Shown: piece after piece, positions 41,684-60,352 of the stretch
Layout of the letters: each line of letters opens with the position of its first letter
Numbering within the stretch: position 1 is the stretch's first letter
From: Shimia aestuarii
GTDB lineage: Bacteria > Pseudomonadota > Alphaproteobacteria > Rhodobacterales > Rhodobacteraceae
NCBI RefSeq assembly: GCF_022814865.1
Contig: NZ_JAKVRD010000003.1
Coordinates: forward strand, 156,001-220,000
Direction: 5' to 3'
DNA length: 64,000 nucleotides
Notes under the pieces: generated by a model
The model's database searches: none
What the model saw: only the letters and a program-made list of their open reading frames with translations
Told to the model about the DNA's origin: nothing
Translations under genes and position numbers: made by a program

Positions 41684-42898
41684 TTATACGAATGCCTGTA
41701 GCCCGGTCTGCGCGCGGCCAAGGATCAGGGCGTGGACGTCATGCGTGCCTTCATAGGTGTTCACCGTCTCGAGATTGACCATGTGACGGATCACGTGGAA
41801 ATCGAGGCTGATCCCGTTGCCGCCATGCATGTCGCGCGCCATGCGCGCCACGTCGAGCGCCTTGCCGCAATTGTTGCGCTTGATGATCGAGACCATCTCC
41901 GGCGCGGCCTTCGCCTCGTCCATCAGACGCCCCACCCGCAGGCAGGATTGCAGGCCGAGCGCGATCTCCGTTTGCATATTGGCGAGCTTCAGTTGGAACA
42001 ACTGCGTCTGCGCAAGCGGCTTGCCGAACTGCTTGCGGTCAAGCCCGTATTGCCGCGCCCCGTGCCAGCAGAACTCCGCCGCGCCCATTGCGCCCCAGGC
42101 AATGCCATAGCGCGCCCGGTTGAGACAACCGAACGGCCCCTTGAGCCCCTCGACATTGGGCAGAAGCGCATCTTCCGACACTTCGACATTGTTCATCACA
42201 ATCTCGCCGGTGATCGAGGCCCGCAGGGACATCTTGTTCTCGATCTTCGGCGCCGAAAGGCCGGTCATGCCCTTCTCGAGGACAAAGCCCTTGATCTTGC
42301 CGCCATGCGCCTCGGACTTGGCCCAGACGACGAACACATCCGCGATCGGCGCGTTGGAAATCCACATCTTCGAGCCGTTCAGGACATAGCCGCCCTCGGT
42401 CTTCTTCGCGACGGTCTTCATGCTGCCCGGATCAGAGCCCGCATCCGGCTCGGTCAGGCCGAAACAGCCGATGTATTCGCCCGAAGCAAGCTTCGGCAGG
42501 TATTTCTCGCGCTGTTCCTTGGTGCCATAGGCATAGATCGGATACATGACGAGGGAGGACTGCACCGACATCATCGAGCGATAGCCCGAATCCACGCGCT
42601 CCACTTCGCGCGCCACAAGGCCATAGGTCACGTAGCCCGCGCCGATCCCGCCATATTCCTCGGGGATCGTGGTCCCAAGAAGGCCCATCTCGCCCATCTC
42701 GCGGAAAATCTCCGGGTCGGTCTTTTCGTTCTCGAACGCATCCGTCACCCGCGGAAACAGCTTGTCCTGCGCATAAGCCCGCGCCGCATCGCGCACCATG
42801 CGCTCATCTTCCTCGAGCTGATCCTCAAGAAGAAACGGGTCCTCCCAGGTGAAAGACGAAAGGTCGGGCCGGCTTTGCGGCTTGAGATGATCGGTCAT
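41684..42898 (-). CDS. gcdH: Glutaryl-CoA dehydrogenase
   Basis: FAD enzyme that oxidises and decarboxylates glutaryl-CoA to crotonyl-CoA, the last step of lysine, tryptophan and glutarate degradation. The 404 residues show the acyl-CoA dehydrogenase fold with [33 protein letters not shown] and the C-terminal [19 protein letters not shown], where the Glu in YEG is the catalytic base. [18 protein letters not shown] at the start is GcdH-like. ATG 42898 was chosen over an upstream extension. Divergent from an XRE-cupin regulator and a CaiB transferase, which supports glutaryl-CoA use. Confidence 0.93.
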
Positions 42899-42965
42899 AT
42901 GCGCCCCATTCTTGATACGGTCGGTTGCGTTTCCATCAGGTCGGCTCCGCAGGTTCGCTCCTCTA

Positions 42966-43006
42966 TTGCTCATTTTTTTGAGCAAGTCGAACAAAAAGTT
43001 GCGCAA
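42966..43006. promoter_or_regulatory. Operator-like dyads between gcdH and its regulator
   Basis: TTGCTCA (42966-42972) and TGAGCAA (42979-42985) are perfect 7-bp arms around six T residues; a second site TTGCGCAA (42999-43006) is a perfect 8-bp palindrome sharing the TTGC/GCAA half site. Both lie in the divergent gap of 157 bp. The XRE-cupin protein encoded next to it is the obvious candidate ligand-responsive repressor. This is an inference. Confidence 0.6.
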
Positions 43007-43055
43007 GGCGCACAATCCCCCTAGAACCGAGGAGGAACCTAGAGCGGAAACGGCC

Positions 43056-43628
43056 ATGAGTGAAGAGTTCGACGTAGGGTCACGTTTGAGAACGCTGCGC
43101 AACGCAGCCGGGTTTTCGCAGCGACAGCTCGCGGAAGCCTCCGACGTGCCGCACGGACAGGTCTCGATGATCGAAACCAACCGCTCGAGCCCCTCTGTCT
43201 CGTCGCTGCGCAAAATCCTCGGCGGGCTTGGTATCTCCATGGCCGAGTTCTTTGAGCCCGAGGAAGCCCCCGAGGATCAGGTTTTCTTCGCCCCCGCCGA
43301 GTTCTCGGATCTTACTTCCGCGCTCTATGCCGACGCGACCGGGCGGCTCCAATTGCGTCAGGTCGGAGACGCAAAGAAACGGGGCCTGCAAATCCTGCAC
43401 GAAACCTATGCCCCCGGTGCCGATACCGGAGAGACGTTGCTTGAGCACGAGGCGAGCGAGGGCGGCCTTGTTATCTCTGGCGAGATCGAAGTCACCGTCG
43501 GCAGCCAAACCCGCGTGCTCGGCCCCGGCGAGGCCTATCTCTTCGACAGCCGCCAGCCGCACCGCTTTCGCAACACCTCCGAGGCCGAGGCCGTGGTCGT
43601 CTCTGCCTGCACGCCCCCCTATCTCTGA
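43056..43628 (+). CDS. XRE-family regulator with cupin sensor domain
   Basis: A 190-residue PuuR-like regulator. Residues about 9-64 are a lambda-repressor type HTH ([20 protein letters not shown]); residues about 110-188 are a cupin ([20 protein letters not shown] then [11 protein letters not shown]). ATG 43056 gives this structure. It lies 10 bp before the CaiB gene and divergent from gcdH, next to matching palindromes. Its sensed ligand is probably glutarate, glutaryl-CoA or a derivative (inference). Confidence 0.88.
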
Positions 43629-43637
43629 AGGAAGCCC

Positions 43638-44750
43638 ATGAAACCGCTCGAAGGTCTGAAAGTCGTCGAACTCGCCCGTATTCTCGCGGGTCCGTGGATC
43701 GGCCAATCCCTCGCCGATCTCGGCGCCGAGGTGATCAAGGTCGAAAGCCCCGATGGCGACGACACCCGCAAATGGGGACCGCCCTTTATCGAGCGCGATG
43801 GCGATGTGACCGCGGCCTATTACTATGCTGCGAACCGCGGCAAGGACTGCGAGGTTCTGGATTTCCGTACCGATGAGGGACAGGCCCGCGTGCGCGCCCT
43901 TGTGGCCGACGCAGATATCCTGATCGAGAATTTCAAACTCGGGGGACTGGCGAAATATGGCCTTGATTATGCGAGCCTCGCCGCCCTTAATCCCCGCCTG
44001 ATCTATTGCTCCATCACAGGCTTCGGACAGGACGGCCCCTATGCCGCGCGCGCAGGCTATGACTTCCTCATCCAAGGCATGTCCGGCCTGATGTCGATCA
44101 CCGGCGAACCGGACGGCCAACCGCAAAAGGTCGGTGTCGCGGTGACGGATATCGTCACCGGCCTCTACGGCACCATCGGCATCCTCGCGGCCGTCGAACA
44201 ACGCCATCGCACCGGCAAGGGCCAGCATATCGACATGTCCCTCCTCGACTGCGCCACGGCCATGCTCGCCAACCAGTCGATGAACTACCTCGCAACCGGC
44301 CAAAGCCCGATGCGCAAGGGCAACGCTCATCCCAATATCGCACCCTATCAGGTACTGCCGGTAAGTGATGGCCATATCATCATCGCCGTCGGCAATGACG
44401 GCCAGTTTCAGCGCCTCTGCGGCGTGCTTGGGGCAGGCGATCTGGCCGAGGATAGGCGCTTTGCCTCCAATCAGCTCCGCGTCGAAAACCGTGACGCCCT
44501 GACCGCCGCGCTCGAAACCGCGATGGCCCGCTGGACCAAGACCGACCTCCTCGCCGCGCTCGAGGCCGCAACCGTCCCCGCGGGTCCGATCAACGCCATC
44601 GGAGAAGCCTTTGAAGATCCTCAGATAAAAGCACGCGGCCTAGAGATCGCGCCCGAGGGCATCCCCGGCGTGCGCGGCCCGTGGCGCTTCTCAGACGCAG
44701 AGCTTGCGCTCGACAAATCCGCCCCCGTGCTGCCGAAATCCAAGCCTTAG
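43638..44750 (+). CDS. CaiB/BaiF-family CoA transferase, probably glutarate CoA transferase
   Basis: Class III CoA transferase of 370 residues (KVVELARILAGPWIGQSLAD at the N-terminus, LGAEVIKVESPDGDDTRKW, and MSLLDCATAMLANQSMNY containing the catalytic-region Asp near residue 195). GAAGGAAG precedes ATG 43638. Adjacency to gcdH suggests it activates glutarate with succinyl-CoA, as known for the human SUGCT-type enzyme. Other dicarboxylates are possible. Its last 4 bp overlap the stop of the convergent SDR gene. Confidence 0.88.
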   Translation: MKPLEGLKVVELARILAGPWIGQSLADLGAEVIKVESPDGDDTRKWGPPFIERDGDVTAAYYYAANRGKDCEVLDFRTDEGQARVRALVADADILIENFKLGGLAKYGLDYASLAALNPRLIYCSITGFGQDGPYAARAGYDFLIQGMSGLMSITGEPDGQPQKVGVAVTDIVTGLYGTIGILAAVEQRHRTGKGQHIDMSLLDCATAMLANQSMNYLATGQSPMRKGNAHPNIAPYQVLPVSDGHIIIAVGNDGQFQRLCGVLGAGDLAEDRRFASNQLRVENRDALTAALETAMARWTKTDLLAALEAATVPAGPINAIGEAFEDPQIKARGLEIAPEGIPGVRGPWRFSDAELALDKSAPVLPKSKP

Positions 44751-45505
44751 GCCCCGCGAATATTCTTCTGCATCACATACTGAAAAAGGCGTGGGCTCAG
44801 GCGGTGCAGCATATGGCTGACCCTTGCCACGCGCCCCACTGGAATAAACGGCTGTCGCCGCGCCACACCGCGCAGGATCACCGTGGCCGCCTCCTCCGGT
44901 GTCATCGCATCGATCCCGTCGCCTGCCGATCCGGGCCGCGCCGTGCCATCCTCCTGTCGCTCGGCCTGACCCGGATTGGTCGCAATGAAAGATGGTGCCG
45001 CGATAAGCGTCTGCACCCCATGCGCCGCCTCCTCCGAACGCAAGGACGAGAAGAACCCCTCAAGCGCGTGTTTCGACGCCGCATAGGCCGTGCGGTGATA
45101 GAGCGGCGAGAACCCCGCCACCGAGGAAATCGCCAGATGCGTGCCCTTGCTCTTGCGCAACGGCTGTAGAAACGCCGCCGCCATGGCCGTCGCGGCAAAA
45201 AGGTTGATCTCAAACACCTTCCGCAGCGCCGCCTCGTCGAGATCGGCAAAGGCGCCGATCTGCGTGATCCCGGCATTGTAGATCACAAGGTCGATGGACG
45301 GGCTTTCGGCGATGATCTGGTCAAACACTGCCGCCCGCGCCGCCCCATCTGTCAGGTCGCAGGCCACAGGCATCTGCATCGCGCTCGCCTGAAGCCCGGA
45401 AATATCCCGATCCACAAGAACCACACGCCACCCTGTCGACCGCAACGCCGCCGAAAGCGCCCGGCCAAGCCCGCCTGCGCCCCCAGAAATCACCGCCGTT
45501 TTCAT
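44747..45505 (-). CDS. Short-chain dehydrogenase/reductase
   Basis: A 252-residue classical SDR: NAD(P) motif GGAGGLG (8-14), NAG-containing strand IYNAGITQIG, catalytic Ser in AISSVAG and YAASK (Tyr-x-x-x-Lys near 155). It is the last gene of the TetR-facing operon, its start overlapping the previous stop by 4 bp. It presumably oxidises or reduces a hydroxyl/ketone in that pathway; substrate unknown. Confidence 0.88.
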   Translation of the reverse strand: MKTAVISGGAGGLGRALSAALRSTGWRVVLVDRDISGLQASAMQMPVACDLTDGAARAAVFDQIIAESPSIDLVIYNAGITQIGAFADLDEAALRKVFEINLFAATAMAAAFLQPLRKSKGTHLAISSVAGFSPLYHRTAYAASKHALEGFFSSLRSEEAAHGVQTLIAAPSFIATNPGQAERQEDGTARPGSAGDGIDAMTPEEAATVILRGVARRQPFIPVGRVARVSHMLHRLSPRLFQYVMQKNIRGA

Positions 45506-46440
45506 GGCTGCACACTCTGGCGCCAGTGCTCAAATACTTCAGCGCTGGTCTTCTCTGGCACATAGCCGAACTCGCGCTTCAGCGCATCATTGGCGAGCAC
45601 CGGGCGATATTGCAGGAACCGAACCTGTTCCGGCCCATAGCGGCTCAGCCCCAAAGGCTTCGCCACGGCGAGCGCCGCCTTCAGAAGCCCCGCAGGCAGG
45701 CGCACCACCGGCTTGTCGAGCGCACGGGCCAAATCGGACATCCCCATCGCACCGTCCCCTGCGACGTTAAAGATCCCGGCTGGTCCGCTGGTCGCTGCAC
45801 GAAAGAGAATCCGCGCAAGGTCGCGCGTCCAGATAAACACAAACGGGCTTTCGCTCCCCTTGAGCGCAAGGAGGCGCGGCTTTTTGAAAAGCGCCGTGAT
45901 CTGGTTTTCTGTCCCCTGCCCGAGAACCGTCCCGACGCGCAGCACCACCTGTTCGAGCTGTGGCGCTTCTTGCCGCGCGCGTTCAAGGATCTCCTCCACA
46001 AGACGCTTGTGATGACTATAGGCAAAGGCCTCGTTGCCGCGCAACGGGTCCCCCTCGCGCAGCGGCACCGGGTTGTCCGCATGATAGCCATAGGCCGCAC
46101 CCGACGAGGTCACGACAAAGCGTCGCGTCCCCGCGGCGATCGCCGCCGCGAGAACCTTCTCGGTCCCCTCGACATCGACGGCATAGGCAAAGGCCCGATC
46201 CGCCCCCTTGGGAGGCGTGACGATCGACGCCAGATGCACAACGACCTCTGGCCGTTCTTCGGCCAAGACCCGCGCGGCATCCTCTTTGGTCACGTCAAGC
46301 GGCACAAACCGCGCATTCTCGGGCATATGCTCCGGCGCAAAAAGCCCCGTCGCGATCACCTCGTGATCCGTGCCGTCCAACTCGCGCAGGAAGGCCTGCC
46401 CGACCAAACCGGCAGCCCCGGTAATCAGAATCTTGCTCAT
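45502..46440 (-). CDS. NAD-dependent epimerase/dehydratase-like protein (extended SDR)
   Basis: A 312-residue extended SDR. ILITGAAGLVGQAFLREL gives the Rossmann GxxGxxG (6-12). A YSHHK motif in the AFAYSHHKRLVEEIL helix takes the place of YxxxK (Tyr-Ser-His-His-Lys). Start ATG 46440. It is third of four genes in the leftward operon. It resembles oxidoreductase-type extended SDRs more than sugar epimerases; cofactor NAD or NADP is not certain. Confidence 0.85.
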   Translation of the reverse strand: MSKILITGAAGLVGQAFLRELDGTDHEVIATGLFAPEHMPENARFVPLDVTKEDAARVLAEERPEVVVHLASIVTPPKGADRAFAYAVDVEGTEKVLAAAIAAGTRRFVVTSSGAAYGYHADNPVPLREGDPLRGNEAFAYSHHKRLVEEILERARQEAPQLEQVVLRVGTVLGQGTENQITALFKKPRLLALKGSESPFVFIWTRDLARILFRAATSGPAGIFNVAGDGAMGMSDLARALDKPVVRLPAGLLKAALAVAKPLGLSRYGPEQVRFLQYRPVLANDALKREFGYVPEKTSAEVFEHWRQSVQP

Positions 46441-47339
46441 TGGGCCGCCTCGCGCCTCGAGAGCATGTAGGCAAGCCCCATACCCGACAAGATATGCCAG
46501 ATACCCCAAAACGCCGCGACAACCGCCATGCCGCCAAGCCCGTGGAAAAACCCAAAGATCAACACAAGGCCGAGGCCCGAGTTCTGAATCCCTGTCTCGA
46601 TGGTGACTGCGCGGCGGTTGAAAGGCGACAGCCCCGCAAGCGTCGCTGTGACAAAGCCCCCTGAAAGCGCCAGCGCATTGTGCAGCAAGACAAGCCCCGC
46701 CACGAGACCGGCATAAAGCAGGAAGTAGTTCCAGTTCGCCGCCAATGCGAGCACGACAAAGGCGATGAAGATCCCCATCGACACCCATTGCAGCGGCGTG
46801 CGCAAGCGCGCGGTGATATTCGGACGCGCCATGTTGAGCCAGATACCAAGGATCAACGGCAGCACGAGCATGAATCCCACCGTGATAGCAACAGAGATCG
46901 GATCGACCGATGTGGCGCGCAAGATCTCGCGTGTCGGTTCATATAGGCTGCCCCAAAAGGCGATGTTGAACGGCGTGAGAAAGATCGCTCCCACCGTTGC
47001 AAAGGCTGTCATCGACACCGAAAGCGCCGCGTTGCCGCCCGCCCGATGGGTGATGAAATTCGAGATATTGCCGCCCGGACAGGCCGCCACGAGGATCAGG
47101 CCAAGCGCGATCGAGGGCTGCGGATTGGTCAACAGGACAAGCCCGAATGTCAGCACCGGCAAGACCACGAATTGCGAGAACAGCCCCGCGATCAGCGGTT
47201 TGGGGGCATGGGCCAACCGTTTGAAATCTTCGGGCTTGAGATCAATGGCGATTGAAAACATCACCACGGCAAGGATCCCGTTCAGAAGTTGCAGGGATCC
47301 GGGGCTGAAATTCAGCATCACGTCATCAACAGGGGTCAT
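46437..47339 (-). CDS. BASS-family (bile acid:sodium symporter-like) transporter
   Basis: A 300-residue membrane protein with about nine or ten helices. The family segment LVAACPGGNISNFITHRAGG (near residue 85) is a BASS/SBF signature, and the later TGIQNSGLGL segment is the second. ATG 47339 overlaps the FMO stop by 4 bp. BASS carriers move steroid conjugates, pantoate, pyruvate and related organic acids with Na+. It probably imports the compound handled by the neighbouring monooxygenase. Confidence 0.9.
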   Translation of the reverse strand: MTPVDDVMLNFSPGSLQLLNGILAVVMFSIAIDLKPEDFKRLAHAPKPLIAGLFSQFVVLPVLTFGLVLLTNPQPSIALGLILVAACPGGNISNFITHRAGGNAALSVSMTAFATVGAIFLTPFNIAFWGSLYEPTREILRATSVDPISVAITVGFMLVLPLILGIWLNMARPNITARLRTPLQWVSMGIFIAFVVLALAANWNYFLLYAGLVAGLVLLHNALALSGGFVTATLAGLSPFNRRAVTIETGIQNSGLGLVLIFGFFHGLGGMAVVAAFWGIWHILSGMGLAYMLSRREAAQ

Positions 47340-48655
47340 GCGCGCGCTCCTTTCTGAAGGCGTTTGATCCATTTCGTGACGGCGCCGCGATAGGTCGCCT
47401 TATCCACGTAATACGCCATTCGGGCCAAATCGAGGTAGTCCATTCCGCCCGTCGCCCTGTCATAGCCCTTGGCTTTCTCTGCCTTAAGCTCTTTCGCCGC
47501 CGCCGTGCCATCGCGCAGACCGGCCACATACCGCGCCACCATCTCGGCCTGTTCATGCCGTCCCTGCCAGCCGAGGCCCGTCGCCTCGATCATACCAAGC
47601 ACAAAGAGATCGTCGCGCTCGGGATGCATCGCGTTGAGGTAAAGATGCGGCGCATCGCCTTGCCAGTTCAGCAGTGAATCCTCGATGAACGGGTAATGCA
47701 GCTTGTAGCCCGTTGCCGCGAGGATCATGTCATAGTCTTCCTGCGTGCCATCGGTGAAATGGACCGTCTTACCCTCAAGCCGCGCGATATTGGGCTGCAC
47801 CCGCAGATCGCCATGCCCGGCATGATAGAGGACGAGTGAATTCACCACCGGATGACTTTCGTAGAGCTTGTAGTCTGGCTTGGGAAAACCGTATTTCTCG
47901 GGCCGCCCCACGAACCATTTGAGCAGAAAGCCATCCACCTTCCGCTTAAGCCACATCGGCAGGTTGATCGCCCCGCCAAGCGTATCGGCCGGCTTGCCAA
48001 AGACGTATTTCGGCACAAAATAATAGCCACGCCGCATGGAAAGATCGGTGCGCTTGGCGTGGTGGATCGCGTCCACCGCGATATCACAGCCCGAATTCCC
48101 CGCCCCCACGACAAGCACGCGCTTGCCATCGAATTGCGACGGATAGCGATAGTCGCAGGCATGGATCAACTCGCCGTCGAACGTGCCTTCAAAACGCGGC
48201 ATGTTGGGCTCGGACAAGGTGCCATTTGCGATCATCACCCCGGCATAGACCGCCTCATGCTCGCCCTCGCCATCACGCCAGGTCACACGCCAGCCTTCGC
48301 CACTGCCTCCAAGCGGGGCAAGCGATGTCACCTCAGCATTGAAATGGTAATGCTCCCTCAGTCCGAAGTGATCTGCAAAACGGCGGAAGTAGCCTTTGAG
48401 ATCATGGTGGCTCGGATATTCGGCCACATCCTCATCCATCGGGAAGTCTTCGAACTCCGTCATGTGCTTTGAGGAAATCAGGTGGGCGCTTTCGTACATG
48501 GTCGAACGCGGGGCGTCGATATCCCACAATCCGCCGACATCCGAATGCAGTTCGAACCCATCGAACCCGACGCCCTGCTCCTTGAGAACCTTGGCCGCTG
48601 CAAGCCCCATCGGCCCCGCCCCGATCAGGGCGAATTTCTCGCGCGTTTCCAACAT
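47336..48655 (-). CDS. Flavin-containing monooxygenase-like protein
   Basis: A 439-residue class B flavoprotein monooxygenase. FAD site ALIGAGPMGLAAAKVL near residue 9, FMO/BVMO-type fingerprint FDGELIHACDY (F-x-G-x3-H-x3-Y) near 160, and NADPH site VLVVGAGNSGCDIAVDA. The first gene of the operon, divergent from the TetR gene across 75 bp that contains an operator-like palindrome. It may N- or S-oxygenate, or carry out Baeyer-Villiger oxidation; the substrate is unknown. Confidence 0.9.
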   Translation of the reverse strand: MLETREKFALIGAGPMGLAAAKVLKEQGVGFDGFELHSDVGGLWDIDAPRSTMYESAHLISSKHMTEFEDFPMDEDVAEYPSHHDLKGYFRRFADHFGLREHYHFNAEVTSLAPLGGSGEGWRVTWRDGEGEHEAVYAGVMIANGTLSEPNMPRFEGTFDGELIHACDYRYPSQFDGKRVLVVGAGNSGCDIAVDAIHHAKRTDLSMRRGYYFVPKYVFGKPADTLGGAINLPMWLKRKVDGFLLKWFVGRPEKYGFPKPDYKLYESHPVVNSLVLYHAGHGDLRVQPNIARLEGKTVHFTDGTQEDYDMILAATGYKLHYPFIEDSLLNWQGDAPHLYLNAMHPERDDLFVLGMIEATGLGWQGRHEQAEMVARYVAGLRDGTAAAKELKAEKAKGYDRATGGMDYLDLARMAYYVDKATYRGAVTKWIKRLQKGARA

Positions 48656-48696
48656 GCACCCTCCCCTGTGCTATTGTTGTGTTAATGATATTAGAT

Positions 48697-48714
48697 TGAA
48701 CACTCGTTCAATAT
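48697..48714. promoter_or_regulatory. TetR operator candidate, 18-bp dyad
   Basis: ATTGAAC-ACTC-GTTCAAT has perfect 7-bp arms and lies midway in the 75-bp gap between the divergent monooxygenase and TetR genes, in position to repress both. The size and symmetry suit a TetR dimer. Confidence 0.75.
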
Positions 48715-48730: not shown

Positions 48731-49405
48731 ATGAAGATGAAGATTCCTCAGGAAAAACAACGGCAAAGAGCGCCGTCCAAACGTGCCCTCGAAACCCGCG
48801 CGGCGATTCTGAACGCCGCCGAACGGCTTTTTGCGGCACGGGGATTCGACGGCACCTCCATCCGTGATATCGGCAAAGAAGCCGGGGTACAGACAAGTCT
48901 GGTGAACCATCATGGCGGCACCAAGGAAGAGCTTTTTGCACGGATCGTCGCGCGCCGGGCCGATGAGCTTTCCATCGCCCGCCTAAGCGCGCTGGCGGCC
49001 CATAACCACGCAGGCGCCCCGACACTCGAAGGGGTGCTGACAGCTTTCTTTGGCCCCTATCTCGAAAAAGCCGAAGCCGCCGAACCGCAATGGCGCGCCT
49101 ATGCCCGACTGGTGGCTATTGTCTCGGCCGATCCGCAATGGAAAGACCTGACCGAGCGCTGTTTCGACCCCACCGCGCGCCGCTTTATCGACGCCATCGC
49201 CTCGCTCTTTCCGAATGCACGACGCGATGATATCGCCGCCGGTTTTGTCTATTCGGTCTCGGCCATGCTGGCCCTTGCCACGTCCCGCTGGCGCGTCCGC
49301 GCCCTAAGCGACGCCCCACAGGACATGACAAGCCACCTTGATGAACTGGTGCGTTTCTGCGCCGCCGGGATCACCGCCGCCGCAACACCCCCGGATCCGG
49401 CCTGA
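48731..49405 (+). CDS. TetR-family regulator
   Basis: A 224-residue TetR protein. The DNA-binding segment is residues about 18-66 (ILNAAERLFAARGFDGTSIR then IGKEAGVQTSLVNHHGGTKE); the rest is the helical ligand-binding domain. The usual YYYF-like contact region reads LVNHHGG. Divergent from the FMO-BASS-SDR operon with a dyad between them, so it most likely represses that operon and itself. It ends 5 bp before the next convergent stop. Confidence 0.92.
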   Translation: MKMKIPQEKQRQRAPSKRALETRAAILNAAERLFAARGFDGTSIRDIGKEAGVQTSLVNHHGGTKEELFARIVARRADELSIARLSALAAHNHAGAPTLEGVLTAFFGPYLEKAEAAEPQWRAYARLVAIVSADPQWKDLTERCFDPTARRFIDAIASLFPNARRDDIAAGFVYSVSAMLALATSRWRVRALSDAPQDMTSHLDELVRFCAAGITAAATPPDPA

Positions 49406-49410
49406 CGCCA

Positions 49411-49863
49411 TCAGGGGATGAGCACCGCCTTGCGCTCGAAGACGGCCTCAGCCGTGCCAAGATCGTCGTAAAGCAGTTCGACCTCGACCGTCTCGATCGA
49501 CCCAAGCGGATAGTTGAGGTAGATGACTGCGTCTTCGGGAATGGCCGCAGGTGACGGCCCTTCCGCATCACAAGGCGGCAAGTCAAACACCATGCTTTCG
49601 CCGCCGTTCAACGCGAACCGCACCTCGTGCAATCCACAGCGCCACGACAAGAGATGTGTGAAGTAGAGCAGGTCGAGCCCGTTATACTCTCGTACCGCGA
49701 TCCAGTTCGCACGGGTCGCCTCGAGGATCGGTCGCACCTCCGTCGCAGTCAGAAACTTCCCCGTCGGACTTTGGTCTTCCTTGGCATAGTTCTCATCGGC
49801 CAACGCCATCCCTGCCACCCCGGCAACCACTGCGAGCAATCCGGCCCTTAGATAGTTTGACAT
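49411..49863 (-). CDS. Exported hypothetical protein
   Basis: A 150-residue protein not recognised by name. The first 22 residues are a signal peptide (AGLLAVVAGVAGMALA); the mature part has two Cys (RCGLHEVRF and LPPCDAEG) about 25 residues apart that may form a disulphide, and a beta-rich C-terminal half (IYLNYPLGSIETVEVELLYD). GGGAGGGAG precedes ATG 49863. Single gene between TetR and a GT-like gene. Confidence 0.8.
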   Translation of the reverse strand: MSNYLRAGLLAVVAGVAGMALADENYAKEDQSPTGKFLTATEVRPILEATRANWIAVREYNGLDLLYFTHLLSWRCGLHEVRFALNGGESMVFDLPPCDAEGPSPAAIPEDAVIYLNYPLGSIETVEVELLYDDLGTAEAVFERKAVLIP

Positions 49864-49983
49864 TCGCTCCCTCCCTTCGATTTTGCAGCACCGCAACAGG
49901 TCGTCCCCGCAATCCCGGGTGGAACACATGGATTTCGCCGTTATAGTTGCGGCATATGAGTATCGTGCAGGGCAGCAGTCAAA

Positions 49984-50988
49984 ATGGCAAGAAAAGCGTC
50001 GAAGCGGCCAGACTTCAATATCGTCATCGTCGGTCAATCGGGCCGCCTGCAATACGAAGCGGTTCTCTTCGCCGCCTCCCTGCGCGCCAATTCGCCGGAT
50101 TTCTCAGGACGCCTCTTCGTCGCCGAACCCCAGCCAGGGCCAAGCTGGGATAGCGATCCGCGCATCCACTCTGAGCCGGTGCGCAGCGCCCTAGAGGAAC
50201 TCGGCGCCGAGATCATCCCCTGCGAGAGCACGCATTTCGGCGGCGCCTACCCCTATGGCAACAAGATCGAGGCGCTTCTCGCCCTACCCGAGGGTGAGCC
50301 GTTCGTATTCTTCGACACCGACACGCTTGTCACGGGCGATCTGATGTCCGTCCCCTTCGATTTCGACCGCCCCTGTGCCTCGCGCAAGGTCGAAGGCACG
50401 TGGCCCACCATTGAACTCTACGGCCCCGGCTACACGCAAATCTGGAAATCGCTCTACGACAAGTTCGGCCTCGATTTCGAAACCTCGCTCGACCTCTCCT
50501 GGCCTGACGAATACTGGCGGCGCTATCTCTATTTCAATGCCGGGTTCTTCTACTACAAATGCCCCAAGCTCTTTGGCGAACGCTTCCTCGACTACGCCAA
50601 CGAAATCCACTGGAACGCACCGCCCGAATTGATCTGCCAGCCGCTGGACCCATGGCTTGACCAAGTCGCCCTGCCGCTTGTGATCCATTCCTTCGGCGGC
50701 GGCCGCGATGCATTGCCCGAGGGCTATCTCGACGGGGATGTGACCTGCCATTACCGCATCCTGCCGCTCGCCTATGCGCGCGAATCTGATGCCGTGATCA
50801 AGACCCTCGAAGACGTTGCCGCCCCCAATAAGATCAAGAAAGTGCTCAAGGAATATGACCCGATGAAGCGCATGATCTACCAAGGCCGCGGCCAGAAGGT
50901 CCGCGCGCTCTTTGATCGCGACAACCTGCCCCGCAAGGAACAGGCGATCCGCAACAAGATCAAGCGCAACGGCTTCTGGATGCGCTAA
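49984..50988 (+). CDS. Glycosyltransferase-like protein with DTD motif
   Basis: A 334-residue soluble protein with a nucleotide-diphospho-sugar-transferase look: an N-terminal IVIVGQSGRLQYEAVLFAAS, a FFDTDTLVTGDL acidic motif near residue 100 and FNAGFFYYKCPKLFGER near 180. The arrangement recalls GT8-type enzymes. The C-terminal 50 residues are strongly basic. No signal peptide. It stands alone between two intergenic gaps; role unknown, possibly a lineage-specific family. Confidence 0.72.
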   Translation: MARKASKRPDFNIVIVGQSGRLQYEAVLFAASLRANSPDFSGRLFVAEPQPGPSWDSDPRIHSEPVRSALEELGAEIIPCESTHFGGAYPYGNKIEALLALPEGEPFVFFDTDTLVTGDLMSVPFDFDRPCASRKVEGTWPTIELYGPGYTQIWKSLYDKFGLDFETSLDLSWPDEYWRRYLYFNAGFFYYKCPKLFGERFLDYANEIHWNAPPELICQPLDPWLDQVALPLVIHSFGGGRDALPEGYLDGDVTCHYRILPLAYARESDAVIKTLEDVAAPNKIKKVLKEYDPMKRMIYQGRGQKVRALFDRDNLPRKEQAIRNKIKRNGFWMR

Positions 50989-53378: not shown

Positions 53379-55724
53379 ATGAAACCGGAATTTGCCCTTT
53401 CCCTTTCCTTTGAAGGGATTAGCCTTCTTTACCGCATCGAGGGCGGGTGGCACCTTATGGGCGAAGCCGCCCTGACCTCGGAAACCCTCGGGGCCGATCT
53501 CGAGGCCCTGCGGGATACGGCCGAATCCATCGGCGGCAAGGCGTTCCGAACCAAGCTTGTCCTTCCCAACGAACAGATCAAATACCTCTCGCTTTCCACC
53601 GGCAAAATCGACCGCGAGGCGCGCATTGCGGCGGTCTCTGCCGAGCTTGAGGCGACGACACCGTATGGTATCGACGAACTGGCTTTTGACCTGACAGCGG
53701 CAGGGCCCGAAACCCATGTCGCCGCCGTCGCGCGCGAGACCCTTGTCGAGGCCGAGGCTTTTGCCGTCGAACACGCCTTCAACCCGGTTTGTTTCGTTGC
53801 CATCCCACCCGCCGGAACCTTCTCGGGTGAGCCGTTCTTCGGACAGACCGAGATCGCGCCGAAACTCCTGAAGAAAGACACCGCCAAACCCGACGAATTG
53901 CCAATCCACGTGATCTCGTCCGGCCCCCTGCCCGAACCCAAACCCGAACCAGAGCCCGTCGCCGCGCCTGAATCTGCGCCGGCCCCGGGCCTTGCCACCG
54001 CGCCCGCCGCCCCCAAACCCGAGGCCGAGCCGGAATTGCCGCTCGCTGCCGCGCCAGAGGCACCTGCTCCCGCCCTTGAGACGAAAGCGACACCGCAAGA
54101 GGCGGAAGACGCCACAGACCTGCCCGCCGCACCGGAAGTCCTTCCTGACGCCACCCCCACACCGTCTTTTGGCAGTCGTCGTAGCACCGCCGCCCCCTTG
54201 CGCGCAGAGCGGAGCGCCGAAACCGCGCCGCGCCGTGAAAACACCCTGACCGCAAGCCGTGAAGACGGCCAGGCGCTGCGCTTCGATCCGGCCCGCGTCG
54301 CAGCAGGCTTGCGTCCTCAACAGACCGAGGCCACCGACGACACCGATGGCCGGGGCCGTCGACTGGCCGAGAATGCATCCGGCGCCGTGGTCGCGGCCAC
54401 CGCCTTCCTGAGCCGGCGTCGCGAGGCCCGCAGAGCGCGTCGCGCCGCGGGTTCCGCCGTTCCGGCCGAGGCTGCCGCCACCAACGAACGCCAACGCATG
54501 ATGGTCTTTGGTGCGCGCAGCACCGAAATCGGCGGCAAGCCGCGTTACCTTGGCCTTGCCCTTACCGTCGTTCTGCTCGTGTTCCTCGCCGCGGTCGCCG
54601 CTTGGGCGTCGCTGTTCATGGACGAGGGTCTGGCCGGGCTTTTCCGCCGCGACCCGCCACAACAGATCGCCGACAGCGCCCCCGAAAGCCAACCGGTCGA
54701 AAATCTCGAAACCGCCGCGCTGCCGCCCGTGTCGCCCGACACGATCACCGACAGTGCCGAGATCGAAGCGATGACCGACGCGGATCACCCGACCGCGCTG
54801 GACGGGCACGAAGCCGAGGCCCGCTATGCGGCTACGGGAATCTGGCAACGCGCCCCGGATCAGGCTCTAACGCCTGAGTCCGGAAGCACCGACGATCTCT
54901 ACCTGACCTCGATCGACCGCGTGGTGATTGCCAAGGATGCGGTCGCGCTCCCGGCGCTGAAGTCTTATGCCACCGACCGCCCCCTGCCGCGCCAGATGTC
55001 ACCGCTGCCGCGCGGGCTCGATTTTGACATGGACGAACGCGGATTGGTCAAGGCCACGCCGGACGGCGCGCTCTCGCCGGAGGGCATCCTGGTCTATCTT
55101 GGCAAGCCACCGGTCCTGCCCGCTGCCTATCCGGTTCGCAAGGCCGCACCGGGCGAAGCCCTGCCGCCCGTCGAACGCGCCCGGATTGCAACGCTGCGCC
55201 CACGCCTGCGCCCCGAAGACCTGATCGAACAAAACGAACGCGCTTCCAATGGTGGCCGCACCCTCGCGGAACTGTCGAACATGCGCCCGCGTCTGCGACC
55301 GGAGACCGAAAAGGCCGAAGAGGAAGCCGAGGACACCACCGCGACACAATACGCAGTGACTGCCTCGCTCCGCCCCAAACCACGTCCGCAGAATTTCGAA
55401 GCGATCGTCGCCCGCGCCGATCCGGCTGAGCGCGTCGAGCCAACCGCTGCCGTCGCCACCGTCACGCCCTCGATCCCAAGCAGCGCCTCTGTCGCCCGGC
55501 AGGCCACGATCCAGAATGCCATGAACCTGCGCAAGGTGAACCTGATCGGGGTCTATGGCACATCGAATTCTCGCCGCGCTTTGGTCCGCCTGTCCAACGG
55601 GCGCTTCAAAAAGGTGAAGGTCGGAGATCGCATTGACGGCGGCAAGGTCGCTGCCATCGGTGACACTGAACTGCGCTACATCAAGTCCGGCAAGAACGTC
55701 GTTCTCAAACTGCCCCGCGGCTAG
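53379..55724 (+). CDS. Large membrane-anchored protein with GspL-like head and GspC/PilP-like tail
   Basis: A 781-residue protein in three parts. Residues 1-150 resemble an actin-like GspL/PilM head (FALSLSFEGISLLYRIEGGW). Residues about 165-385 are a low-complexity Pro/Ala/Glu then Arg-rich linker. A single membrane helix at about 389-410 (GLALTVVLLVFLAAVAAWAS) would put the rest in the periplasm. The last 70 residues (LIGVYGTSNSRRALVRLSNG, KKVKVGDRIDGGKVAAIGDT) look like a GspC HR or PilP domain. It may be a one-protein version of the inner-membrane platform of a pilus or type II system. No other such genes are nearby. Low similarity makes the domain calls tentative. Confidence 0.72.
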   Translation: MKPEFALSLSFEGISLLYRIEGGWHLMGEAALTSETLGADLEALRDTAESIGGKAFRTKLVLPNEQIKYLSLSTGKIDREARIAAVSAELEATTPYGIDELAFDLTAAGPETHVAAVARETLVEAEAFAVEHAFNPVCFVAIPPAGTFSGEPFFGQTEIAPKLLKKDTAKPDELPIHVISSGPLPEPKPEPEPVAAPESAPAPGLATAPAAPKPEAEPELPLAAAPEAPAPALETKATPQEAEDATDLPAAPEVLPDATPTPSFGSRRSTAAPLRAERSAETAPRRENTLTASREDGQALRFDPARVAAGLRPQQTEATDDTDGRGRRLAENASGAVVAATAFLSRRREARRARRAAGSAVPAEAAATNERQRMMVFGARSTEIGGKPRYLGLALTVVLLVFLAAVAAWASLFMDEGLAGLFRRDPPQQIADSAPESQPVENLETAALPPVSPDTITDSAEIEAMTDADHPTALDGHEAEARYAATGIWQRAPDQALTPESGSTDDLYLTSIDRVVIAKDAVALPALKSYATDRPLPRQMSPLPRGLDFDMDERGLVKATPDGALSPEGILVYLGKPPVLPAAYPVRKAAPGEALPPVERARIATLRPRLRPEDLIEQNERASNGGRTLAELSNMRPRLRPETEKAEEEAEDTTATQYAVTASLRPKPRPQNFEAIVARADPAERVEPTAAVATVTPSIPSSASVARQATIQNAMNLRKVNLIGVYGTSNSRRALVRLSNGRFKKVKVGDRIDGGKVAAIGDTELRYIKSGKNVVLKLPRG

Positions 55725-59341: not shown

Positions 59342-60352
59342 CTACCCGTCCGAGACGCCCGCCTCGGCAAAGGTCGCCATGCCGGAATGACAGGCAATGG
59401 CCGATTTCAGGATATTGATCGCCAAGGCTCCGCCCGACGCCTCCCCAAGGCGCAGGCCAAGCGACAGCATCGGCGCCTTGCCAAGCTTCTCCAGAAGCCG
59501 CACATGCCCGGTCTCCGCGCTCACATGGCCCGCCAGCGCATGATCAAGCGCGCCGCCCTCTGCCGCCTCAAGTGCCGCCGCCGCCGCGCAACAGATGAAC
59601 CCGTCCAGGATAACCGGGATCGACAGGCTCCGCGCGCGGGCAATCGCCCCCGCCATCGCGGCCAACTCCCGGCCGCCAAGACAGCGCAGAACCTCGAGCC
59701 CCTCGCGCGCAGGATTGACGGCAAGCCCTTCGGCGACAACCCGTGCCTTGGTCGCAAGGCCCGCATCGTCGACGCCCGTGCCGCGCCCAACCCAATCCTC
59801 GGCCGCACCACCAAAAAGCGCCGCCGCGATAGCCGCCGCCGCTGTGGTGTTGCCGATCCCCATTTCCCCAACGACAAGAAGGTCGGTGTTCTCCGCTACC
59901 GCATCCCAACCCGTGGCCAGCGCCGCGATGACCTCTGCTTCGCTCATCGCCGGGCCTTGGGTGAAATCCGCCGTGGGTCGGTCCAAATCGAGCGCATGCA
60001 CCGAAAGCTTCGCCCCCGCCGCGCGCGAAAGCTGATTGATCGCTGCGCCGCCGTGCTGAAAGTTAAGCACCATCTGCTCGGTCACTTCCGCCGGAAAGGC
60101 CGATACGCCCTGCGCCGTGACCCCGTGATTGCCTGCGAAAACGATCACCTGCGGCGCCGCGATCTCCGGCCGCGCCGTCCCGCGCCATCCTGCGTACCAG
60201 ATCGCCATCTCCTCAAGCCGCCCAAGCGCCCCCGGCGGTTTGGTCAACTGGCCATTGCGCTCTGCTGCCGCGTCCAACACGCCTTGATCCGCCTTCGGTG
60301 CCTCGGCGAGCAATTTGCGGAAATCATCAAGCGTTGAAAAAGGCGCGGGCAT
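59342..60352 (-). CDS. cobT: Nicotinate-nucleotide-dimethylbenzimidazole phosphoribosyltransferase
   Basis: Activates the lower ligand base of cobalamin by making alpha-ribazole phosphate. The 336 residues include [16 protein letters not shown] near 72, [18 protein letters not shown] near 163, and the catalytic-Glu segment [13 protein letters not shown] near 305. AGGAG lies 7 nt before ATG 60352. Divergent from cobS across 82 bp, a common pairing. Confidence 0.97.

Follow-up and report, generated by a model that had tools for sequence, protein, structure and literature searches.

A TetR-linked FMO-BASS-EPI-SDR gene unit in Shimia aestuarii and the recurrence of its core in two phyla

Results

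Organization of the locus

We analyzed a 64,000-nucleotide stretch of the Shimia aestuarii genome (Rhodobacteraceae; assembly GCF_022814865.1, contig NZ_JAKVRD010000003.1, positions 156,001 to 220,000 of the forward strand; hereafter, the window), in which four minus-strand genes lie back to back opposite a divergent regulator gene. FMO (47336–48655, 439 aa) encodes a protein resembling group B flavin-containing monooxygenases (FMOs; PF00743, E 3.3e-56), BASS (46437–47339, 300 aa) an SBF-family Na+ symporter (PF01758, 2.3e-35), EPI (45502–46440, 312 aa) an extended short-chain dehydrogenase of the NAD-dependent epimerase/dehydratase family (PF01370, 2e-29), and SDR (44747–45505, 252 aa) a classical short-chain dehydrogenase (PF00106, 6.3e-40) with a YAASK motif. 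On the plus strand, TetR (48731–49405, 224 aa) carries the domains TetR_N (PF00440, 1.4e-14) and TetR_C_30 (PF17939, 1.1e-28). Between FMO and TetR sits an 18-bp dyad without strand, ATTGAAC-ACTC-GTTCAAT (48695–48712), which is a probable TetR operator. An earlier note on this DNA, made from the letters alone, had drawn the operon as 44747–48714; taken together with its switch, the locus reaches 49405, where TetR ends.

Automatic open reading frame (ORF) calls had placed the starts of BASS and EPI further upstream. When both are taken at ATGA, the FMO/BASS, BASS/EPI, and EPI/SDR junctions each overlap by 4 bp, as the earlier note had described. We surveyed the same junctions in 16 alphaproteobacterial loci, the window included, with start codons picked by a simple rule, and found the −4 spacing at FMO-BASS in 15, at BASS-EPI in all 16, and at EPI-SDR in 14. 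FMO-BASS spacing is likewise −4 in six of six actinobacterial loci, and the junctions of six betaproteobacterial loci are mostly short gaps, not overlaps. We infer that the four genes are co-transcribed. A promoter scan of the TetR-FMO gap found no sigma-70-like site and returned one terminator-like match within the TetR gene (0.3 expected).

The families proposed in the earlier note, namely a monooxygenase with the FxGxxxHxxxY fingerprint, a bile-acid-type symporter, an extended and a classical short-chain dehydrogenase, and a divergent TetR gene beside a perfect-arm dyad, all hold. Pfam scores exceed the gathering cut-offs for FMO (191.3 bits versus 22), BASS (122.5 versus 24.3), EPI (103.1 versus 20.9), SDR (137.2 versus 26.6), and TetR_N (54 versus 24); FMO residues 159–169 read FDGELIHACDY; and the dyad has two perfect 7-bp arms around a 4-bp spacer. 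All five proteins score below the cut-offs of the NCBIfam models listed for them (for SDR, the top 25 of 205), and of these scores the nearest is that of SDR on PRK06181, at 178.7 bits versus 215.

Both dehydrogenases possess the YxxxK catalytic motif. That of EPI is Y141-x3-K145, accompanied by the nucleotide-binding sequence TGAAGLVG, and the closest folds to the EPI model (mean predicted local distance difference test score, pLDDT, 93.2) are NDP-sugar epimerases (top Z 30.1). EPI falls far below every NCBIfam cut-off listed for it, including that of GalE (TIGR01179, 57.8 bits versus 262.3). Residue 32 of EPI, at the end of the second strand, is Gly in the window copy and nearly invariantly Asp among its relatives; an Asp at this position usually selects NAD over NADP.

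A conserved probable operator in the TetR-FMO gap

The core of the dyad, TTGAAC-N4-GTTCAA, matches the window at one place when up to one mismatch is allowed (0.08 expected). In a scan limited to exact matches, it likewise occurs at one place in the 3.97-Mb draft genome, where, as a palindrome, it is read on both strands. We then compared 37 related alphaproteobacterial TetR-FMO gaps, 31 from genome searches and six named, of which L020 and L069 look like one genome and L072 is labelled as belonging to the Rhizobiaceae group. With one mismatch allowed, 32 of 37 gaps contain the site, compared with 0.01 of 37 after shuffling that preserves base content only; the best match has no mismatch in 20 gaps, one in 12, two in three, three in one, and five in one. 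That last gap belongs to L028, the sole locus of the 37 without a TetR match. The four spacer bases differ between loci. Measured to the first aligned FMO residue, the site ends roughly 25–47 bases upstream in 33 of the 36 remaining loci and 74–86 bases upstream in L072, L075, and L077. A site conserved in this way is the trace expected of a local repressor acting on both promoters, and we regard it as the predicted and probable operator of TetR.

Distribution within the family and beyond

In 295 genomes of the family, FMO homologs at 1e-60 were found in 37, comprising 33 close orthologs (at least 74% identity) and four distant relatives (37–43%). EPI homologs at 1e-45 occur in 34 of the same 295 genomes: all 33 with an FMO ortholog, plus G245, a 1,180-contig assembly in which EPI begins at base 98 of its contig. 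At 31 ortholog loci (30 from the 33 family genomes and one from a search of the phylum, each reaching only part of EPI), BASS and EPI adjoin FMO in every case and TetR does so in all but L028. The unit is patchy in the family, at about 11% of genomes, and a genome has either all of it or none.

The earlier note had proposed a comparison of gene neighborhoods, and this comparison shows the core recurring as a unit beyond the family. A genome scan and synteny search found FMO, BASS, and EPI together in Sulfitobacter marinus, Pseudophaeobacter, and Ruegeria; in Variovorax, Hydrogenophaga, Acidovorax, and Roseateles; in Reinekea blandensis, Alcanivorax hongdengensis, and Pseudomonas saudimassiliensis; and, among Actinomycetota, in Microbacterium, Agromyces, Leucobacter, Nocardioides, and Ornithinimicrobium. 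Two alphaproteobacteria (L080 and L148) carry a divergent variant with the gene order BASS-EPI-FMO. A search of plasmids returned FMO relatives only at 33.5–40.7% identity, in 16 records.

What accompanies the trio depends on the lineage. In a synteny survey of 45 loci, which covered the genes of the window and 13 named neighbors, alphaproteobacterial loci add TetR upstream and SDR downstream. Betaproteobacterial loci add a different short-chain dehydrogenase upstream (10 of 10), an EamA gene downstream (5 of 10), and a convergent LysR gene (4 of 10), and gammaproteobacterial loci a divergent AraC gene with an Arabinose_bd domain (7 of 9), a short-chain dehydrogenase (7 of 9), and a TauE/SafE gene (8 of 9). 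The seven actinobacterial loci all contain the trio and none of the other genes sought. At two pseudomonad-type loci (L174, 7905–9971; L175, 7871–10060), an EPI homolog (42–43% identity) adjoins a relative of the divergent AraC regulator of the gammaproteobacterial operons.

Trees were constructed from 55 FMO, 44 BASS, and 40 EPI rows by a quick method, with support from the Shimodaira-Hasegawa-like approximate likelihood ratio test (SH-aLRT) only. All three separate the Rhodobacteraceae, betaproteobacterial, actinobacterial, gammaproteobacterial, and divergent groups by a branch each, and L072 groups with the Rhodobacteraceae copies. The lowest group support is that of the actinobacterial copies (92 in the BASS tree, 85 in the EPI tree). 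These copies are sister to the betaproteobacterial ones within the proteobacterial tree for BASS (support 99, in a run that warned of long branches meeting) and EPI (82); the FMO tree does not resolve this fork. The sisterhood in the BASS and EPI trees suggests joint transfer of the trio between phyla.

An FMO subfamily with an altered flavin site

FxGxxxHxxx(Y/F) is the fingerprint of group B flavin-containing monooxygenases, and the protein bears it together with the FAD motif GAGPMG (12–17) and the NADP motif GAGNSG (184–189). The fingerprint of type I Baeyer-Villiger monooxygenases ends in HxxxW, which the protein lacks, having H165-x3-Y169. Its AlphaFold model has a mean pLDDT of 92.5.

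The protein departs from its class at the dyad over the flavin. Group B FMOs conserve an Asn or Gln at this site, Gln being typical of clade IV, and here the usual x-Asn is replaced by L59-I60. We aligned 27 FMOs bearing the gate-loop motif described below, among them L070 and L076, which have no BASS neighbor, with eight other FMOs. L59-I60 is present in 27 of 27, and I60 aligns without gaps to N57 of the flavin-dependent monooxygenase DiatB, as well as to the corresponding Asn in ancestral FMOs. Ile at this position is not exclusive to the group, being found in six of the eight other FMOs, and the residue before it is Phe in seven of the eight.

In section 8 of PMC10682829, the dyad is placed at positions 61–62, its second residue being mostly Asn in clades I–III, with sparse Thr, His, or Val; Ile is absent from the variants listed there. 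The same section states that this Asn is thought to stabilize the C4a intermediate, that its mutation abolished the activity of mFMO, and that the first dyad position, which corresponds to L59, is Leu or Ile in all enzymes performing Baeyer-Villiger reactions. In human FMO3, according to PMC5676948, N61S loses activity on trimethylamine and retains weak activity on three of four substrates, so the protein studied here may still be a monooxygenase.

A gate-loop signature that tracks the transporter

A second distinguishing feature is the loop signature E357-x(5)-W363-Q-G-R366, of general form E-x(5)-W-[QE]-G-R. By hand count on the alignment to 6sem, Leu375 of the ancestral FMOs falls on T359, within G354-MIEATGLGWQG-R366; section 8 of PMC10682829 describes Leu375 as a gatekeeper, situated on a loop where the substrate enters. 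All 27 motif-bearing FMOs have E357, W363, G365, and R366; of these four residues, only E357 is common elsewhere (seven of the eight others).

We counted neighbors at the 89 loci that extend 3 kb or more to each side of FMO; to be scored, a BASS or EPI neighbor had to lie within 4.5 kb and match at 38% identity over half its length. BASS adjoins 43 of the 45 FMOs with GW[QE]GR and 0 of the 44 without it. Both BASS and EPI accompany 39 of the motif-bearing FMOs, BASS only accompanies four, and two have neither, as do all 44 lacking the motif. The motif was defined on the same sequences as this count and after part of the data had been seen, so the association is a description and no independent test. 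In the FMO tree, moreover, motif-bearing proteins form one clade relative to 10 others (support 86), and the link between motif and BASS may therefore reflect a single event. That an entrance motif tracks the transporter suggests that FMO and BASS may handle one and the same compound.

A BASS transporter with conserved Na+-site positions

The CPGGxxSN and ExGxQN motifs are intact in BASS, and its best NCBIfam match, TIGR00841, scores 169.4 bits versus a cut-off of 326.3. The protein aligns to the structures of ASBT_NM (3zux, E 5.7e-34; 3zuy, E 8.3e-33). Q77, S114, N115, S128, T132, E260, Q264, and N265 of ASBT_NM correspond to Q56, S93, N94, S107, T111, E248, Q252, and N253 of BASS, identical in each case; all but the last of these in ASBT_NM we take to be Na+ ligands. 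BASS members mostly import. In PMC10645422, many members are described as sodium-coupled, and ASBT_NM is reported to bind pantoate as well as taurocholate; the backbone nitrogens of T112 and A113 bind the pantoate, and N265 lies close to its hydroxyl. The label bile-acid-type therefore says little about the substrate, and a small carboxylate is plausible.

Neighboring genes and side observations

The 3′ end of SDR overlaps a convergent gene for a CaiB-type coenzyme A (CoA)-transferase by 4 bp, tail to tail. This gene (plus strand), an XRE-cupin regulator (plus strand), and an acyl-CoA dehydrogenase (minus strand) lie side by side at 41684–44750. The CaiB-type protein scores 554 bits on the succinate--glutarate CoA-transferase model (cut-off 750), and the three genes look like an ordinary glutarate cluster. 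We rejected them as parts of the operon, since the set lies near it only in the window and in L156 among the 45 loci. On the other side of the locus, beside TetR, are two ORFs at 49411–50988 (213 and 334 aa) without a Pfam or NCBIfam match at 1e-3, which keep this place in L149, L150, and L156. The P49411-GT-METY set, found in the window and these same three loci, was also set aside as an operon part and taken to reflect chromosomal position. Two further ORFs, of 781 aa (53379–55724) and 316 aa (59387–60337), have no Pfam match at 1e-8. Elsewhere, a sulfatase gene followed by genes for a GMC oxidoreductase and a TauE-family protein lies near the operon of Hydrogenophaga borbori (L060, 4313–8224), and a 46% relative is found beside TetR in L152 (around 7242), a member of the window's family.

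Discussion

We propose that the locus is an operon under TetR control that serves the catabolism or biotransformation of one particular small organic anion, which may be a hydroxy- or keto-carboxylate; we hold this interpretation about as firmly as we doubt it. TetR would repress both promoters from the single dyad until the compound, entering at a low level, or its first product or intermediate binds the repressor and frees the DNA. BASS would then import the compound with Na+, and FMO would oxidize it with NADPH and oxygen. EPI and SDR could carry out dehydrogenation or reduction before or after this step, adjusting hydroxyl or keto groups. With neither a CoA ligase nor a ring-cleavage gene among the four, the operon must pass its product on, either to another pathway or out of the cell, and the TauE or EamA proteins found in other lineages would be consistent with export. 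The sequences themselves show the order of the genes, their overlaps and domains, the conservation of the dyad, the joint inheritance of the trio within the family, and the link between gate loop and BASS; we infer the direction of transport, the choice of cofactor, repression, the ligand, the order of steps, and the chemistry.

The earlier note had read the locus as uptake plus oxidation of a lipophilic acid, steroid, or terpenoid-like compound. The TetR-switched unit, the Na+-site positions of BASS, and the three redox enzymes agree with uptake and oxidation; the steroid part, judged by a search for KshA, is not supported. The note could name no matching pathway, and neither could we; the open-access papers listed for this gene set showed none.

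Several observations weigh against our proposal. The TauE/SafE gene after the operon in eight of nine gammaproteobacterial loci and the EamA gene in five of 10 betaproteobacterial loci could mean export. EPI does not lie beside FMO in four pseudomonad-type loci (L139, L141, L142, and L143), and in L140 and L076 neither BASS nor EPI does. Across 398 genomes of the phylum the linkage is looser: a motif-bearing FMO occurs in 13 (G572 at 42–43% identity, the other 12 at 54% or above), and EPI at 1e-45 in 10 of these. Two of the 10, G356 and G545, have EPI away from FMO; G348, G652, and G666 have no EPI at that threshold, and G352, G435, and G602 possess an EPI homolog (41–43%) with no FMO at 1e-60. 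EPI is thus not always tied to FMO. In BASS, V261 and M263 of ASBT_NM are replaced by T249 and I251. Finally, the Ile at the flavin dyad may mean that FMO is no monooxygenase.

This last point leads to a reading that is compatible with our proposal and that we consider on the unlikely side, though the least so of those weighed here: FMO may not be a classical N- or S-oxygenase, and may instead represent a novel Baeyer-Villiger-type enzyme, or else work as an NADPH oxidase or dehydrogenase. The uniform L59-I60 dyad, at a position that is mostly Asn and whose mutation abolished mFMO activity, argues for it, as does the Leu or Ile that precedes this position in Baeyer-Villiger performers; the intact FAD and NADP motifs and the residual activity of human FMO3 N61S argue against it. 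Somewhat less probable is an operon for the production or detoxification of a small molecule, with BASS or a second transporter releasing it. The TauE/SafE and EamA genes, both downstream and on the same strand as the operon, and the lack of an assimilation gene among the four would suit such export. However, the search for exporters covered these TauE and EamA proteins only and found a relative of neither in the alphaproteobacterial or actinobacterial loci, and the sodium coupling and mostly inward transport noted above for BASS members favor uptake.

We consider it improbable that the operon serves organosulfur use, with FMO S-oxygenating an imported thioether acid and TauE removing sulfite. 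The TauE/SafE genes of the gammaproteobacterial clusters and the sulfatase of L060 with the 46% relative in L152 point that way, but the sulfatase occurs in only two of the 45 loci surveyed, no relative of the gammaproteobacterial TauE proteins lies near alphaproteobacterial or actinobacterial copies, and the TauE family also carries other anions. Steroid or bile-acid catabolism, for its part, is very unlikely. It is suggested by the BASS family name and by a 3Beta_HSD Pfam match of EPI (9.6e-12), which is weaker than the match to Epimerase (2e-29). KshA (PF19298, E 1e-15), whose search covers the KshA route only, is missing from the S. aestuarii genome and from all 33 operon genomes, so KshA-dependent steroid catabolism is not supported; the sole positive of the 295 family genomes, and of the search, was G201, which lies outside the 33, and 14 control genomes gave no match. 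An arsenic route through ArsO and ACR3, members of related superfamilies, was likewise rejected: FMO scores 93 bits versus 425 on ArsO, and of the BASS-type models only two were listed for the transporter, neither of them ACR3.

Taken together, genes of ordinary families form an all-or-none unit in one bacterial family and share a core between two phyla, which points to one selected function. More tentatively than for our proposal itself, we suggest that FMO-BASS-EPI, joined to a lineage-specific short-chain dehydrogenase and regulator, could be an unrecognized module for a single undescribed compound met by Roseobacter-group, Comamonadaceae, gammaproteobacterial, and actinobacterial species, and that its FMO subfamily may work without the intermediate-stabilizing Asn and read its substrate through a Glu-Trp-Arg gate loop. 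The chemistry of an FMO without a residue held to be important to its class would be a test of how the hydroperoxyflavin is retained, or done without, by group B flavoenzymes, and the single operator offers a clean handle, as a TetR reporter could be used to screen for the compound.

Comparison with known systems

A search of the open-access literature, a scope outside which most subscription papers fall, found no described operon with this gene set among the papers listed. Each component nevertheless has recognizable relatives. TetR shares the TetR_C_30 domain with PsrA-type regulators, and PsrA is its best NCBIfam match, at 60.5 bits versus a cut-off of 300. BASS shares with ASBT_NM its sequence family, most Na+-site positions, and the CPGG and ExGxQN motifs; it differs at the substrate-contact residues T112 and A113, which are N91 and I92 in BASS, and retains N265. 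The pantoate transporter PanS was rejected as an identity (NF047939, 115.1 bits versus 400).

For FMO, bacterial trimethylamine monooxygenase (Tmm) has the group B fold in common (Z about 29), and this identity too was rejected, the score on trimeth_mono (NF058570) missing its cut-off by far (109.4 bits versus 675). The ancestral mammalian-type FMOs (6sek, 6sem, 6se3, and 7al4) are alike in fold (Z 36–38) and share the FAD and NADP motifs; unlike FMO, they have the dyad Asn, and they carry the gate residue L375 where FMO has T359 in its E-x(5)-W-Q-G-R loop. The best match in both sequence and fold is DiatB (PDB 8z12–8z17), for which a literature search found no relevant paper. 8z12 matches in sequence at E 5.4e-61, and the closest folds are 8z17 (Z 45.4) and 8z12 (Z 45.1), at a root-mean-square deviation of 2.0 with 413 residues aligned and 33% identity. 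N57 and R360, the residues mutated by the depositors of DiatB (N57A in 8z16, R360A in 8z17), correspond to I60 and E357 in FMO, that is, to the altered dyad and to the first residue of the gate-loop signature. Against this background, the locus is a well-delimited combination of genes, with an FMO subfamily of its own, built from known families.

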